NCBI GenBank assembly: GCA_902537905.1
Contig: CACBDD010000005.1
Location: forward strand, 1 to 40,240
Length of the DNA: 40,240 nt
Reading direction: 5' to 3'
DNA from: an uncultured Pelagibacteraceae bacterium
GTDB taxonomy: Bacteria; Pseudomonadota; Alphaproteobacteria; Pelagibacterales; Pelagibacteraceae
Part shown: one piece after another, positions 9,080-14,568 of the stretch
How the letters are laid out: each line of letters opens with the position of its first letter
Numbering within the stretch: the stretch's first letter is position 1
The notes under the pieces: generated by a model
The model's input: only the letters and a program-made list of their open reading frames with translations
What the model was told of the DNA's origin: nothing
Database searches by the model: none
Program-made: the position numbers and the translations under genes

Positions 9080-9164
9080 TGTGCGTTGATATTAGTCTTT
9101 AATGAGTTTTTTACGACTATTTTATGGTTGAATTAAATAATTATAATTATAAAACCTTGCTCAC

Positions 9165-9203
9165 GGAGAGATGGCTGAGCGGTTGAAAGCACCGGTCTTG
9201 AAA
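9165..9203 (+). repeat. tRNA-Ser(UGA) 5'-half fragment 1 (39 nt; left junction of unit 1, inferred attL)
   Basis: Exact match to nt 1-39 of the intact tRNA at 14479-14568; diverges after the anticodon loop (cttgaaaTACCAAG versus cttgaaaACCGGC). Confidence 0.97.
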
Positions 9204-9319
9204 TACCAAGTTTACCCTACCCTCTTTAAGACGATTCACATACTTATCAAGACAATCCTCATTTTTTGAAATTTAGCTTTTACGAAAAATACATCATTCC
9301 TGACTAGCCTAAGCTAGAA

Positions 9320-9340
9320 AACTTGTACCAAACTTGTACC
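9320..9340 (+). repeat. Unit 1 left arm repeat R1: AACTTGTACCA AACTTGTACC
   Basis: Two 11-bp-period copies; same 21-mer at 11664-11684. Confidence 0.95.
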
Positions 9341-9351
9341 AAGAATTATAT

Positions 9352-11622
9352 TTATCTGTAACTAATTAAAACTTTATCTGGGTCACCAGATAAAGATGGA
9401 TTTTGTTCTCTTCCAAGCTCTGCTGCCTTTTGAGATACATTATCATCCATATAAGAAAGTAACTCACCGTTAGTTATTTTTTTATCTTGGTTGCTATCTG
9501 CCTTACCTTCTAATCCCTTCATAAGATAATATGAAAATATTCCGTGTTCAGCTTCTTTTAAACCAGATGATATTTGATCTAATTTAGATGCAGTAAATAT
9601 TGTAAAGTTATCAGGTATTCCTTCTTGATCATCTGCAACAATTCTTATTGGACGTGCTGATGCAAGTAGCATTTTTTCGTCTCTTGAAATACCGCTATAA
9701 CAAGTGTCCATAAACATAGTTACAGATTTCGGATTTAATTTAATAATTTGTTCAAATAGTTCTGTTCTTGATAAAGCAGTTCTACTTAACAAATCTGGGT
9801 CACTATCTTGAGGTAAAATATATAATTCTTCACCGTTATTAGATGCTAAACCGTGACCAGCAAAGAATATTATTAATTCTGTTTGATTATTCTTAATTTT
9901 GCTTGGTAACCATTTATTTATCGTACTAATAGATTTTATTAAACTTGCGTCTTCATCTACCAATAATTTAATATTAGCTTTTGGTATTCCAAATCCTTTT
10001 CTTGCGTATTCATAAAAATACTGAGCATCTAAATTAGCAAAATTAGCAGCTGGTGTTTGTTCGTATTTTTCAATACCAATGATTAATGCTACTCTGTTTT
10101 TATTAGATCTTGATTTAATTAATGAAGGATTTAATTGCTCAAGTTTATCTGCAACTATAGTTTCTTTAATATCAACAGTAACATTTACAATTTTTGGCTT
10201 AGATTTATTGCCCCATTGGTCTATTGCAACTATTTTTAATTGTTCATCAATAGGGCTAAATCTTGGAATTGAAAATTTACCATCTTTAACAACTATAGTT
10301 TCTCCATCTACTTGGACAAATAATTTCTTAGATTTATCGATTACTTTACCTTTAATTTCATAATTGCTGTCATTAACAGTTATATTCTCAGCTATCTCAA
10401 TTATTGGTGCATCATTATCTTTATCTTCAGGTTTAAATTCCTCTTGTTTAGACTCTTCTACCTTAGCAATTTTAACTTTTTTCTTTTGTTTTATAGGAAT
10501 CTTGGGTTTCCAGTAACCAAGAGGTTCTAAAGTTCTGAAATTTTTTTCTTCTACAATGCCAATTGTATCAACTAAGTATGCATAAAAAAGTTCGTCTTTA
10601 TAGTTCTGATCTATAATAAAATTAGAATTACACGTATAGTATGGGTTATCAAATCTTCTAATTTTATATTTGTATTCATTTGTTTTCGTATCATACGACC
10701 TATGATTATTTACACAAAATTTGATATTTTTATCCATCTCCTGCGTTTGACTTGGTTTTCCTTTAGCAATTTCAGTTTTTTTATCTTCTATTGATGGTGT
10801 TCCAAACAATATATTTCTAGCATCAACTTTAATAATAATTTCACGATCTTTAATAAGATTAACTTTATAAGGTGCGCATAGTTGAATTGCTCTCAAAACA
10901 CTTTCTGAAAGAACTTTGTAAAATTCTTGACCTGGTTGTTTTAATCTCTTTTGATCAAGTATTTGTGTATGAAATACTGAACCATCATAGTCTAATAGCA
11001 ACTTTACTTTTACTATAAGATTTTTTTCATTTACTGGAAGTCCCATAGGAAGACTAAGACAGCTGCTTATTTTATTTGAAATCATAGTAGAAACTATTTC
11101 ATTACTATCACCGAAAGAATAAATGTCTGGTTCAGGGTTTTTTGCTTTTGAAATTAAATCAGCTATCTTATCTGGATCGGTCAACAATTCATTTTCTTTA
11201 GATTCTTTTTTAGCTAATTTTGTTTTTTCCAATTTGTCAATCTTTGCAAAAGTTTTGGAAAAATAATTTCGATGATTAGAAGGAAGTAAATTTTTAAAAT
11301 TAGCTAATTTAAGATTTTTCCATAATGGTGAACTGAATGCAATATTGCCTTTGCCATAAGTTTTTTCAAAAAATAAATATAGTGATTTATTTTTCTTTTT
11401 ACTTATTTCGTACAAATCATATTTTGGTCCTGTTGTAGTTCTGTAACACTCTGCTTTAAGCAAATGAGTTCTTTTGTCAGTTATGGATACTTGTTCTTTG
11501 TAGCTTTTTTTTGGATCCTCCAGATAAATTTTTACACAAAATACCCTGCCCGCTTCAGCATTTATACTAAATACTAATCCAAAACCAAAAACTATAAATA
11601 GATATGCTAGTAACCTCTTCAT
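9352..11622 (-). CDS. secreted caspase-like (peptidase C14) protein with TolA-C-like and Ig-like domains and an EF-hand-like loop
   Basis: Signal peptide MKRLLAYLFIVFGFGLVFSINAEA; KISSCLSLPMG..LIVKVKLLLDYDGSVFHTQILDQKRL..SESVLRAIQLCAPY (TolA-C-like); DNDAPIIEIAENITV..IKGKVIDKSK (Ig-like); RVALIIGIEKY, IIFFAGHG (catalytic His), TMFMDTCYSG (catalytic Cys); DSNQDKKITNGEL. Confidence 0.92.
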   Translation of the reverse strand: MKRLLAYLFIVFGFGLVFSINAEAGRVFCVKIYLEDPKKSYKEQVSITDKRTHLLKAECYRTTTGPKYDLYEISKKKNKSLYLFFEKTYGKGNIAFSSPLWKNLKLANFKNLLPSNHRNYFSKTFAKIDKLEKTKLAKKESKENELLTDPDKIADLISKAKNPEPDIYSFGDSNEIVSTMISNKISSCLSLPMGLPVNEKNLIVKVKLLLDYDGSVFHTQILDQKRLKQPGQEFYKVLSESVLRAIQLCAPYKVNLIKDREIIIKVDARNILFGTPSIEDKKTEIAKGKPSQTQEMDKNIKFCVNNHRSYDTKTNEYKYKIRRFDNPYYTCNSNFIIDQNYKDELFYAYLVDTIGIVEEKNFRTLEPLGYWKPKIPIKQKKKVKIAKVEESKQEEFKPEDKDNDAPIIEIAENITVNDSNYEIKGKVIDKSKKLFVQVDGETIVVKDGKFSIPRFSPIDEQLKIVAIDQWGNKSKPKIVNVTVDIKETIVADKLEQLNPSLIKSRSNKNRVALIIGIEKYEQTPAANFANLDAQYFYEYARKGFGIPKANIKLLVDEDASLIKSISTINKWLPSKIKNNQTELIIFFAGHGLASNNGEELYILPQDSDPDLLSRTALSRTELFEQIIKLNPKSVTMFMDTCYSGISRDEKMLLASARPIRIVADDQEGIPDNFTIFTASKLDQISSGLKEAEHGIFSYYLMKGLEGKADSNQDKKITNGELLSYMDDNVSQKAAELGREQNPSLSGDPDKVLISYR

Positions 11623-11641
11623 AGTATTACTTTACCAAATG

Positions 11642-11647
11642 ATTATA
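11642..11647 (-). promoter_or_regulatory. candidate -10 (TATAAT) of unit 1 caspase gene
   Basis: Minus strand CCTATAATCATTTGGTAAAGTAATACT-ATG; conserved in unit 2. Confidence 0.5.
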
Positions 11648-11663
11648 GGATTTTACAGGATGA

Positions 11664-11684
11664 AACTTGTACCAAACTTGTACC
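11664..11684 (+). repeat. Unit 1 right arm repeat R1: AACTTGTACCA AACTTGTACC
   Basis: Identical 21-mer to 9320-9340, same orientation. Confidence 0.95.
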
Positions 11685-11759
11685 TTTTGAAAATTTCTTA
11701 AAAAAAAAGCTCTGTTTTTTTGTTGAATTTATAATTTATACTTATAAAACCTTGCTCAC

Positions 11760-11798
11760 GGAGAGATGGCTGAGCGGTTGAAAGCACCGGTCTTGAAA
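11760..11798 (+). repeat. tRNA-Ser(UGA) 5'-half fragment 2 (39 nt; junction between unit 1 and unit 2)
   Basis: Identical to 9165-9203 and 14479-14517, followed by the same TACCAAGTTTACCCTAC as fragment 1. Confidence 0.97.
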
Positions 11799-11914
11799 TA
11801 CCAAGTTTACCCTACTCACTTTAAGACGTTTCACATACTTATCAAGTCATTGCTTACGTTTTGAAATTTAGCTTTTACGAAAAACGCATCATTCTTGAAC
11901 AGCCTAAGCTCCAA

Positions 11915-11936
11915 AACTTGAAGTAAACTTGAAGTA
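11915..11936 (+). repeat. Unit 2 left arm repeat R2: AACTTGAAGTA AACTTGAAGTA
   Basis: Two perfect 11-bp copies; matched at 14383-14402. Confidence 0.95.
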
Positions 11937-11946
11937 AAAATTATTT

Positions 11947-14343
11947 TTATCTATAACTAATTAAAACTTTATCTGGATCACCTGATAACATCGGTTCTTG
12001 TTGTCTGTTGTTAATAAATGCTTCCTCAGAAACATTTTGTTTTAAATAAGCTATTAATTCTCCATTTGTAATTTTTTTATCTTGATTGGAATCTGCCTTA
12101 CCTTGCATACCCATCATTAGATAGTAAGAAAATATTCCGTGTTTAGCTTCTTCAATGCTACCAGAAGTTTGGTCATAATTTGAAGCAGTAAATATAGTAA
12201 AATTATTTTGTACTTCTTGCTCCTCTGCAACTAATCTTATTGGTCTTAATCCGGCAACTAACATTCTTTCATCTCTTGTTTGACCGCTATAACAAGTATC
12301 AAAAAACATCGTAACTGAGTTAGGCTCAACTCTATTTATTAAATCAAAAATTTCTAATCTTGAAAGTGCAGTGTATTGTAATAAATCAGCATCACCATCT
12401 TGAGGTAAGATATATAGGTTTTTACCATCATCAGACGCTAAACCGTGACCAGCAAAGAAAACATAAATATCTTTATTTTTTCCTCTTGCAATTTGTGGAA
12501 GCCACAAAGTTAATGCTTTTAAGGTTTCTCCTCTTGTTGCATTCTCATCAATTAAAACTTTTATATTTTTATTAGGTATTCCCAAGGCTCTGTTTGCATA
12601 AGCTCTAAATGCATTTGCATCTCTATTTGCATATGGTGCATCAATATTTTTAAGAGTTTTATATTTTTCAATTCCTATAATTATTGCTATTTTATTTTTA
12701 TCTTGCTTAACTTTTATCTTGCTTGGATTGGGTTTTTCATAAGATCTTAATTCAGCTATTTCCTTAAATTCAACTTTAATATTTATCGTTTTTTCAGATT
12801 TATTTTGCCATTGATCTATAGCAACTATTTTAATCTTATCACCTGCATCAGGATCAACAACGAAACCTTCTAATTCAAAATTACCTCTTTTTGATATTTT
12901 TAAAGGTCTACCATTAGCTTCTAGATATAACTTGCTCTTGTCATTTACCTTCCCCTTCAAAGTATAAGTTTGGCTATCAACAATAATATTTTGAGCTATC
13001 TCAATTACAGGTGCATCATTATCAATATCTCTATTCTCAGGTTTAAATTCCTCTTGTTTAGGTTCTTCTACTTTAGCAACTTTAACTTTTTTCTTAGGGG
13101 TTGTTGTTAATTTTTCTAAAACATTTTTTTCATATGCAGTAAGTAGCTCTAAATATTTAGTTTTTGAGACTGCAAAAAAATATTTACTACAATTTTTTTT
13201 AATTTGAAAATAAAGACCTGGTGATTTACTTAAACCAACAAAATTTTTAATTCTTTCATGAGATTTTACATAAGAATGTGTGCAGTACAGAAGGTTATCC
13301 TCATTTTGGCTTGGTTCTGCTTTAGCGATTTGGGTTTTTTTATCTAAACTATTTATAAAATTTTCAATAGGTGAAATATCAAGTCCCCATGCTTGATATT
13401 GACTTCTTAAATTGGCTAACCTGACTTTGAAAAATTTATCATTTTCTTTATAATCTAGTGCAGCTGCAATATACTCATTTTCAGATATCCTTGATACAGT
13501 TACGGGTCCTCCTGTAGGACCCTGAACAGCTTTACAACTTTTCTTTGAAATAAAATAATCACCTCTGTTATCACAAAAATATATATTTGATTTAATTTCT
13601 TTTTTCTGCGTTTGGCTTGGTTCTGCTTTAGATATTTGGGTATTTTCGCAATCAAAACCTTTTTTTAAATTATCAAAATTTATTTTTAAATCGTTAAATT
13701 TTAAAGCAGATCTAACAAAATTATCTGGAATAGGAGTTTTTTTAAAATAATTTATTTCATTTTCTATACGGTCAATATCGATTTTAATTTTATTTTTTAA
13801 ATTATTACAGCTGTTAAAACTAAAATTTGTAGTATTTAATTTTTTATATTCAAACTCTTCTTTTCTATTAGTCAACTCTTTAATATCTTCTTCAAAATTG
13901 GTTAATTTTGTGAAGAAAAGTTCTCTGTCAAAATTTTGGCTTGGTTCTTTCGTTTTATTCTTTTTGTTCTCATTTGTATTTATTTCTGCAGCAAATGCTC
14001 CTCTTTTTAATGTTTTTAAATCTTTAATAATAATATTAATAAATTTTTTTTCTTTAAAATTAGAATTTTTTAATTGTGAAGATAATTTTTTTACAGCATT
14101 GTCCATGCTATCAATAGAATTATTTACATAATTAGTTTCTGCTTCTGAAATACCTTTACTTAATGCTTTTGAATAAACTAATCGCTCTAATGTTCTTAAT
14201 TCTTTCTGCAAACATTCTAAGTATTTTACATCTGGTTTCACTTCTAAATTTGAACATGCGTATTTTTCTTGAGCAATACAACTTGTATTTAACACCAACC
14301 CCAAACCAAGAATGATGAACAGATATGCTAGTAGACGCTTCAT
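11947..14343 (-). CDS. secreted caspase-like (peptidase C14) protein with coiled-coil/Cys-module N-terminus, Ig-like domain and EF-hand-like loop
   Basis: Signal peptide MKRLLAYLFIILGLGLVLN; repeated AKAEPSQ linkers; DNDAPVIEIAQNIIV..LKGKVNDKSK; KIAIIIGIEKY, VFFAGHG, TMFFDTCYSG; DSNQDKKITNGEL. Confidence 0.92.
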   Translation of the reverse strand: MKRLLAYLFIILGLGLVLNTSCIAQEKYACSNLEVKPDVKYLECLQKELRTLERLVYSKALSKGISEAETNYVNNSIDSMDNAVKKLSSQLKNSNFKEKKFINIIIKDLKTLKRGAFAAEINTNENKKNKTKEPSQNFDRELFFTKLTNFEEDIKELTNRKEEFEYKKLNTTNFSFNSCNNLKNKIKIDIDRIENEINYFKKTPIPDNFVRSALKFNDLKINFDNLKKGFDCENTQISKAEPSQTQKKEIKSNIYFCDNRGDYFISKKSCKAVQGPTGGPVTVSRISENEYIAAALDYKENDKFFKVRLANLRSQYQAWGLDISPIENFINSLDKKTQIAKAEPSQNEDNLLYCTHSYVKSHERIKNFVGLSKSPGLYFQIKKNCSKYFFAVSKTKYLELLTAYEKNVLEKLTTTPKKKVKVAKVEEPKQEEFKPENRDIDNDAPVIEIAQNIIVDSQTYTLKGKVNDKSKLYLEANGRPLKISKRGNFELEGFVVDPDAGDKIKIVAIDQWQNKSEKTINIKVEFKEIAELRSYEKPNPSKIKVKQDKNKIAIIIGIEKYKTLKNIDAPYANRDANAFRAYANRALGIPNKNIKVLIDENATRGETLKALTLWLPQIARGKNKDIYVFFAGHGLASDDGKNLYILPQDGDADLLQYTALSRLEIFDLINRVEPNSVTMFFDTCYSGQTRDERMLVAGLRPIRLVAEEQEVQNNFTIFTASNYDQTSGSIEEAKHGIFSYYLMMGMQGKADSNQDKKITNGELIAYLKQNVSEEAFINNRQQEPMLSGDPDKVLISYR

Positions 14344-14363
14344 AGTATTACTTTACCAAATGA

Positions 14364-14369
14364 TTATAG
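14364..14369 (-). promoter_or_regulatory. candidate -10 (TATAAT) of unit 2 caspase gene
   Basis: Minus strand CCTATAATCATTTGGTAAAGTAATACT-ATG, same as unit 1. Confidence 0.5.
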
Positions 14370-14382
14370 GATTTTATAGGAC

Positions 14383-14402
14383 AACTTGAAGTAAACTTGA
14401 AG
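14383..14402 (+). repeat. Unit 2 right arm repeat R2: AACTTGAAGTA AACTTGAAG
   Basis: Matches 11915-11934 except the final base, same orientation. Confidence 0.93.
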
Positions 14403-14478
14403 CGACATTAAAATTTATAAAAAAAACAGCTCTGTTTTTTGTTGAATTTTACAATTATACTTATAAAACCTTGCTCAC

Positions 14479-14568
14479 GGAGAGATGGCTGAGCGGTTGA
14501 AAGCACCGGTCTTGAAAACCGGCAAAGGGGCAACTCTTTCCTGGGTTCGAATCCCAGTCTCTCCGCCA
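14479..14568 (+). tRNA. tRNA-Ser (anticodon TGA/UGA)
   Basis: GGAGAGA/TCTCTCC acceptor stem, anticodon stem CCGGT-CTTGAAA-ACCGG, long variable arm, GGGTTCGAATCCC T-arm, encoded GCCA end. Confidence 0.97.

Follow-up and report, generated by a model that had tools for sequence, protein, structure and literature searches.

Secreted caspase-like proteins with exchangeable middle modules are encoded on small tRNA cassettes in SAR11 bacteria and are candidate sensor-effectors of the cell envelope

A few percent of SAR11 bacteria carry secreted caspase-like proteins, and many of the corresponding genes are located on small tRNA cassettes. Two such genes, P1 and P2, lie side by side in the window, i.e., the whole stretch of 40,240 nucleotides analyzed here, which belongs to a SAR11 (Pelagibacteraceae) genome of 757 kb and 57% completeness. 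Each of them forms a cassette of its own, with the anticodon loop of tRNA-Ser(TGA) as insertion point (Table 1). From their sequences, both gene products are predicted to be secreted caspase-like proteases. We see even chances that they are sensor-effectors of an envelope protease surveillance, most likely protecting SAR11 cells from phages or other invaders. SAR11 bacteria are among the most abundant marine bacteria and are exposed to heavy phage pressure; to our knowledge, their defences are poorly known. An earlier description of the system was not found in the open-access literature.

Table 1. Features of the two caspase cassettes and their insertion site; positions refer to the window.
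Feature	Position	Strand	Basis
Outer remnant: tRNA-Ser(TGA) promoter and first 39 nt, to the anticodon loop (CGGTCTTGAAA)	9121..9203	+	Promoter version resembles empty site in G082
Cassette 1 (P1), closed by a tRNA promoter and 5' half of its own (11716-11798)	9204..11798		
Cassette 1 inner repeat pair, AAACTTGTACC twice, 11-bp spacing, 116 bp from core	9319..9342		
P1, predicted secreted bait-Ig-caspase protein	9352..11622	-	ORF, 756 aa; Pfam; AlphaFold
P1 caspase domain, about residues 504-756	9355..10113	-	GHG 589-591, DTCYSG with Cys641; PF00656 E 1.6e-13; metacaspase Z 22.2
P1 Ig-like domain, about residues 400-485	10168..10425	-	Glucodextran_B sub-threshold (E 2e-4); beta domain in AF2 model, pLDDT mostly ~90
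P1 last module, residues 282-371	10510..10779	-	73% identical to module of L035_7164; dS 0.22, dN/dS 0.70
P1 module related to TolA C-terminal domain, residues 147-274	10801..11184	-	39% identity, E 6e-26 to resident TolA
Cassette 1 counterpart of the inner repeat pair at the opposite end, upstream of P1 start	11663..11684		
Cassette 2 (P2); promoter and 5' half (14435-14517) now the 5' part of the intact tRNA-Ser	11799..14517		
Cassette 2 inner repeat pair, AAACTTGAAGT twice	11914..11938		
P2, predicted secreted modular-Ig-caspase protein	11947..14343	-	ORF, 798 aa; Pfam; structure model
P2 caspase domain, about residues 545-798	11950..12711	-	His633, Cys684
P2 second module, residues 132-247	13603..13950	-	86% identical to L035_4408 270-385, in a protein with a caspase of the other clade
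Cassette 2 counterpart of the inner repeat pair at the opposite end, upstream of P2 start	14383..14402		
Intact composite tRNA-Ser (TGA), insertion target	14479..14568	+	ARAGORN

Domain architecture of P1 and P2

The initial annotation had described two proteins with a common signal peptide, Ig-like domain and caspase domain but unrelated sequences in between, and this is what pairwise alignment reveals. The signal peptides are 64% identical over the first 22 residues and the C-termini comprising Ig and caspase domains 55% identical, with the His/Cys dyad intact in both proteins, whereas the sole match between the middles is a linker of about 25 residues, the remainder being unrelated. This linker is indeed common to P1 and P2 but does not represent one fixed element, recurring instead between modules. 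Uniform divergence of the two proteins, the pattern that would have spoken against an exchange of domains, is ruled out by the pairwise and module comparisons, which show exchange at the level of modules.

Assignment to the caspase-type peptidases (Peptidase C14) is clear from PF00656 scores of 51.4 and 52.4 bits for P1 and P2, respectively, against a gathering cut-off of 21.4. Among 39 complete members of the family, the catalytic dyad is well conserved, with GHG present in all of them and D[TSA]C[YF]SG in 38. In structure, the caspase part is closest to Arabidopsis metacaspase 4 (Z 22.2), followed by MALT1 (Z about 19.8). Searching the PDB by sequence with P1 gave zero matches. With 61.6 and 70.8 bits, both proteins stay under the curated cut-off of 140 for the EACC1-associated caspase subfamily (NF047832). 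The DxC motif of the caspase is presumably a hint of specificity for basic residues at the P1 position of the substrate. The SAR11 proteins have the caspase fold and the His/Cys dyad in common with metacaspases, orthocaspases and the MALT1 paracaspase (PF00656), but differ from these in being secreted, in having an Ig domain before the caspase and in the variable strings of modules in front.

The Glucodextran_B/Big_6 matches for the Ig-like domain, located just before the caspase in both proteins, are below the Pfam cut-off, but the AlphaFold model of P1 shows a beta domain in this region, with Ig and caspase parts both predicted confidently (pLDDT mostly about 90 or more). Models of the bait or module regions of P1 and P2 are of low confidence. 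A hydrophobic signal-like N-terminus was found in 38 of the 39 complete family members by a simple hydrophobicity rule, no dedicated predictor being employed. The MKRLLAYLF start is not a general SAR11 signal peptide, as it was found in only 9 of 399 genomes, eight of which are caspase carriers. It also occurs in members (L085:7013-7600, L087:17992-18609 and L127:4251-4832) of a secreted family of about 195 aa (..ADDIxDFQIEGxSIGDSLL..) that is often present in multiple copies near caspase genes.

Exchange and possible origin of the middle modules

The N-terminal parts of the family are strings of modules, a subset of them joined by linkers such as TQIAKAEPSQTQ. In six family members, modules are related to host envelope proteins. 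As initially supposed, P1 carries a TolA-C-like domain, and it is related to the genome's own TolA, the gene of which adjoins a TolR gene. The other relatives are YbgF/CpoB in L035_4408, SurA_N in L037 and solute-binding proteins in three members (SBP_bac_8 in L076_2200 and L082, OpuAC in L045), stand-alone solute-binding homologues being 65-72% identical to the latter modules. MORN and PDZ modules are present in further family members. Most modules, including those of P2, are without a recognized parent, so that the interpretation as bait rests on six proteins, and a PHROGs search gave no phage parent for the modules.

The same protease is combined with different modules and vice versa. The P1 caspase is 93% identical to that of the YbgF/CpoB carrier and 86% identical to that of one carrier of a solute-binding module. 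Conversely, P2 and L035_4408 have a nearly identical module (86%), while their caspases share merely 54%. In the caspase tree, proteins with unlike N-termini sit as neighbours, and modules reappear in new combinations across family members. For two shared modules, dS is about 0.2, compared to 0.34-1.6 between caspase pairs, and dN/dS reaches 0.31 and 0.70, compared to 0.06-0.08 in the caspase, indicating that the modules moved more recently and with faster amino-acid change, whereas the protease is conserved. The initial idea of a fixed delivery signal and a fixed putative protease with a swapped middle is thus well supported.

Insertion of P1 and P2 at tRNA-Ser(TGA)

A location at tRNA genes, which the initial annotation had suggested checking, is evident for both genes. 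The tRNA promoter plus the first 39 nucleotides of the tRNA occurs three times in the window, with one gene per interval, resulting in cassettes of about 2.6-2.7 kb without an integrase. In a close relative (G082), the order is rarD, tRNA-Ser(TGA) and recG, with an empty gap between rarD and the tRNA (flanks 90-92% identical). As expected of tRNA-integrated elements, a portion of the tRNA is thus directly repeated on either side of each cassette, and the site is empty in a relative. The promoter of the outer copy is similar to the empty-site version, and the intact tRNA now uses the copy delivered by cassette 2. Inside the tRNA-derived ends, each cassette has, at either end, paired direct repeats with 11-bp spacing whose unit is the same within the cassette but different between the two (AACTTGTACC in cassette 1 and AACTTGAAGT in cassette 2). 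The attP junction predicted for the P1 cassette is CGGTCTTGAAA joined to TACCAAGTTTACC.

Distribution and companion genes

Among 399 genomes sampled from the window's genus, 16 encode the Ig-caspase family, as do 9 of 297 genomes drawn from the order, the own genome counted; carriers are thus rare, and they are mostly incomplete single-cell genomes. About 47 members were present among the fetched loci, with up to four copies per carrier, often in tandem. P1 and P2 are real, but the initial count of two units falls short, the more so as a third paralog with a different N-terminus is encoded in the same genome (G000:C1), near an RseP-like protease. Recurrent sites of caspase genes are tRNA-Ser/recG, tRNA-Leu/NAD-kinase-like and others. 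Core genes at a fixed locus, the alternative named at the outset, can be ruled out in favour of accessory genes, despite their preference for tRNA hot spots. Relatives of the caspase were not found in IMG/VR.

Three genes for secreted proteins, designated TPR-trypsin, DUF4384 and LPP20, are situated near many caspase genes, in some cases as whole partner sets between tRNA-Ser remnants (L083). The full-length TPR-trypsin is encoded in 12 of the 16 carriers but in none of the 383 non-carriers (Fisher p 6e-20, phylogeny not corrected); in the remaining 4 carriers, it was not detected. Outside the family Pelagibacteraceae, a genome from the same class (G657) has all four homologues together on one strand, with identities of about 43-44% for the Ig-caspase, 29% for the trypsin, 29-32% for DUF4384 and 27-30% for LPP20.

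As the protease domain of the TPR-trypsin matches DegP/HtrA models, caspase and HtrA-like companion might also represent a proteolysis and stress system for envelope quality control, in which the modules dock the protease to Tol-Pal, SurA or transporters. Modules matching Tol-Pal, chaperone and transport proteins are in line with this. However, presence in 16 of 399 genomes, mobile cassettes and fast-evolving, shuffled modules are unlike housekeeping, and we regard a quality control function as unlikely. Being modular, polymorphic and secreted, the caspases could alternatively be released onto neighbouring cells, with the modules employed for docking or entry; Tol components are import routes for some bacteriocins. 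But neither an immunity gene nor secretion machinery was seen beside the caspase genes, and the conserved companions look periplasmic, making such a competitive role very unlikely. As an immunity-like neighbour was not seen and the C-terminus is the conserved part, the proteins are not assigned to polymorphic toxin systems, and the comparison with polymorphic effectors drawn initially has to be modified: the variable part is the N-terminal and middle region rather than a C-terminal toxin. The second part of that proposal, a conflict system residing in the envelope, is plausible, given that a trypsin-like protease accompanies the caspases, that restriction systems use the same kind of tRNA cassettes and that the modules evolve fast.

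Proposed role in envelope defence

Defence with decoys is favoured because a fast-evolving, exchangeable sensor with relatives among host envelope proteins is combined with a conserved protease, a second protease and the company of restriction genes. According to this proposal, invader proteins touching the periplasmic machinery would encounter the modules as bait or decoys. Binding or cleavage of a module might release the caspase, with the Lys-rich linkers as candidate cleavage sites, and caspase and trypsin could form a short protease cascade leading to envelope damage or death of the infected cell. By means of the cassettes, in turn, cells could gain, accumulate and exchange sensor-effector genes. 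Host-derived decoy logic is best known from plant NLRs, where copies of host proteins are fused as bait to a death-linked protein; this is an analogy in the way of working only, without homology to the SAR11 proteins. If true, SAR11 would possess an envelope-located protease immunity with host-derived decoys and a compact trading of sensor-effector genes.

The closest known counterparts are the trypsin/caspase conflict systems of multicellular bacteria (PMC7159879), which are diversified by DGRs (PMC10907252). Both have a variable sensor, a constant peptidase, trypsin- and caspase-type effectors and proposed protease cascades in common. In contrast to these systems, the SAR11 set is predicted to be periplasmic, its diversity stems from cassette and module exchange, and its host is a streamlined, planktonic bacterium. 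MoxR, vWA or STAND proteins of the NTPase core were not seen among the recurrent neighbours of caspase genes in these incomplete genomes. In PADLOC, none of the known defence systems was matched above threshold as a complete set; the search gave weak matches of P1 and P2 to a generic 'caspase' model (E 7e-6 and 4e-12, respectively), together with RT-protease matches on the trypsin domain.

Cassettes across SAR11 and their proposed mobilization

The same cassette plan is found at tRNA-Leu(TAA). Repeats were seen at either end in 42 of 51 SAR11 cassettes, and the repeat unit matches between the ends in 41 of these 42, compared to 6.8 matches on average and at most 15 in 5000 shuffles of the end pairings; the background rate of 11-bp-spaced repeats is 1%. 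The paired end repeats might be integrase arm-type sites, which they resemble. A role as promoter elements only is unlikely, since they are present at both ends whichever the gene direction; as the pair on the gene side overlaps with the promoter region, it may nevertheless serve both roles. Whatever the function of the cargo, such integrase-less cassettes with matched, variable end repeats suggest a single-gene swapping route for a streamlined genome.

Remnants of tRNA-Leu were detected in 34 of 151 genomes, so that cassettes are much more common than caspases. Caspase cassettes are mostly about 2.2-4 kb in size and contain between one and three genes. The tRNA-Leu site also harbours restriction-type cargo, i.e., GmrSD plus a Cas4-like nuclease (L127), a type IIG system (L215) and a type I system (L232), and further cassettes carry arrays of pilin-like genes, genes for secreted proteins and a number of metabolic genes. 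As non-defence cargo travels in this way as well, the vehicle is no proof of a defence role. Integrase-less tRNA-Leu cassettes with matched end repeats (L213, L215-L245 and L127) are widespread in SAR11. One of them, in the window's own genome (L213:7422-12903), encodes ATP-grasp, proteasome-like and two secreted proteins, and another single cassette (L216:3868-9514) harbours at least 10 pilin-like genes in tandem, the products of which are almost identical at the N-terminus but differ in their C-terminal parts.

Among 138 cargo ORFs, the only integrase is a 551-aa protein in L229. This locus (L229:9511-18277) contains an autonomous 8.8-kb element at the same tRNA-Leu, encoding a tyrosine recombinase, an AEP primase/DUF5906 and a RusA-like resolvase, and bears ACCAGCACA repeats, a unit also present in the integrase-less cassettes L218 and L234. 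L229 is a candidate helper element, and the cassettes might be moved in trans by tyrosine integrases of such related autonomous elements. Relatives of the L229 integrase were found neither in IMG/VR nor in the phage collection. As the caspase cassettes lack an integrase and most carriers show a single integrase match of XerC/D size, homologous recombination or tandem duplication could be considered as the origin of the cassette structure instead of site-specific integration. This is extremely unlikely, however, as the anticodon loop is the precise position of the junctions in both tRNAs concerned, the ends are conserved while the cargo differs, repeats match within a cassette, and the autonomous relative with integrase shares site and ends.

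Cargo units separated by tRNA-fragment repeats are also known from additive flexible genomic islands, for example the tRNA-Lys repeats in Methylopumilus (PMC10872708). In SAR11, by contrast, the repeated part is the 5' half of a tRNA, with the cut at the anticodon loop, and the units are often single genes, each of which has a matched repeat pair of its own. Tycheposons and hitcher elements or phage satellites are tRNA-targeted marine elements as well, hitchers needing a helper for mobility (PMC11389934, PMC10803314). L229, carrying integrase, primase and RusA, may be compared with these, but caspase cassettes have neither an integrase nor a replication gene. With about 2.6-2.7 kb and one gene each, the P1 and P2 cassettes do not qualify as Tycheposons, which are large (4-200 kb) tRNA-bordered elements with a tyrosine recombinase (PMC10872708).

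Taken together with bait-caspase fusions, some of them with self-derived bait, and a chromosomal trypsin partner set, we tentatively propose an exchangeable envelope immune repertoire of SAR11 in which single-gene tRNA cassettes have variable end repeats read by different trans-acting integrases, a wider scheme that we hold to be possible rather than probable. Alternatively, the caspase could be selfish cargo serving the cassette itself, e.g., through exclusion of phages or elements competing for the tRNA. The att sites of pelagiphages HTVC105P and HTVC109P in the same tRNA-Leu and the accumulation of cassettes in tandem are in line with this. But tandem arrays show that insertion is not blocked, and a benefit to the cassette is compatible with the defence reading; as a separate explanation, we judge it quite unlikely.

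Both pelagiphages have the tRNA-Leu 5' half beside their integrase gene without paired repeats. Consequently, a pelagiphage integrase was rejected as direct helper, as the tRNA-Leu core is shared but the flanks do not contain 11-bp-spaced repeats. Exact attP junctions or P1 repeats were not found in IMG/VR, and five IMG/VR matches to CCAGTACC pairs were judged to be chance from context and composition. In the pelagiphage att flanks (L184 and L186), CCTCGTACA occurs once, at a distance of about 80 bp ahead of the tRNA-Leu core and possibly by chance; in some cassettes, this unit is doubled.
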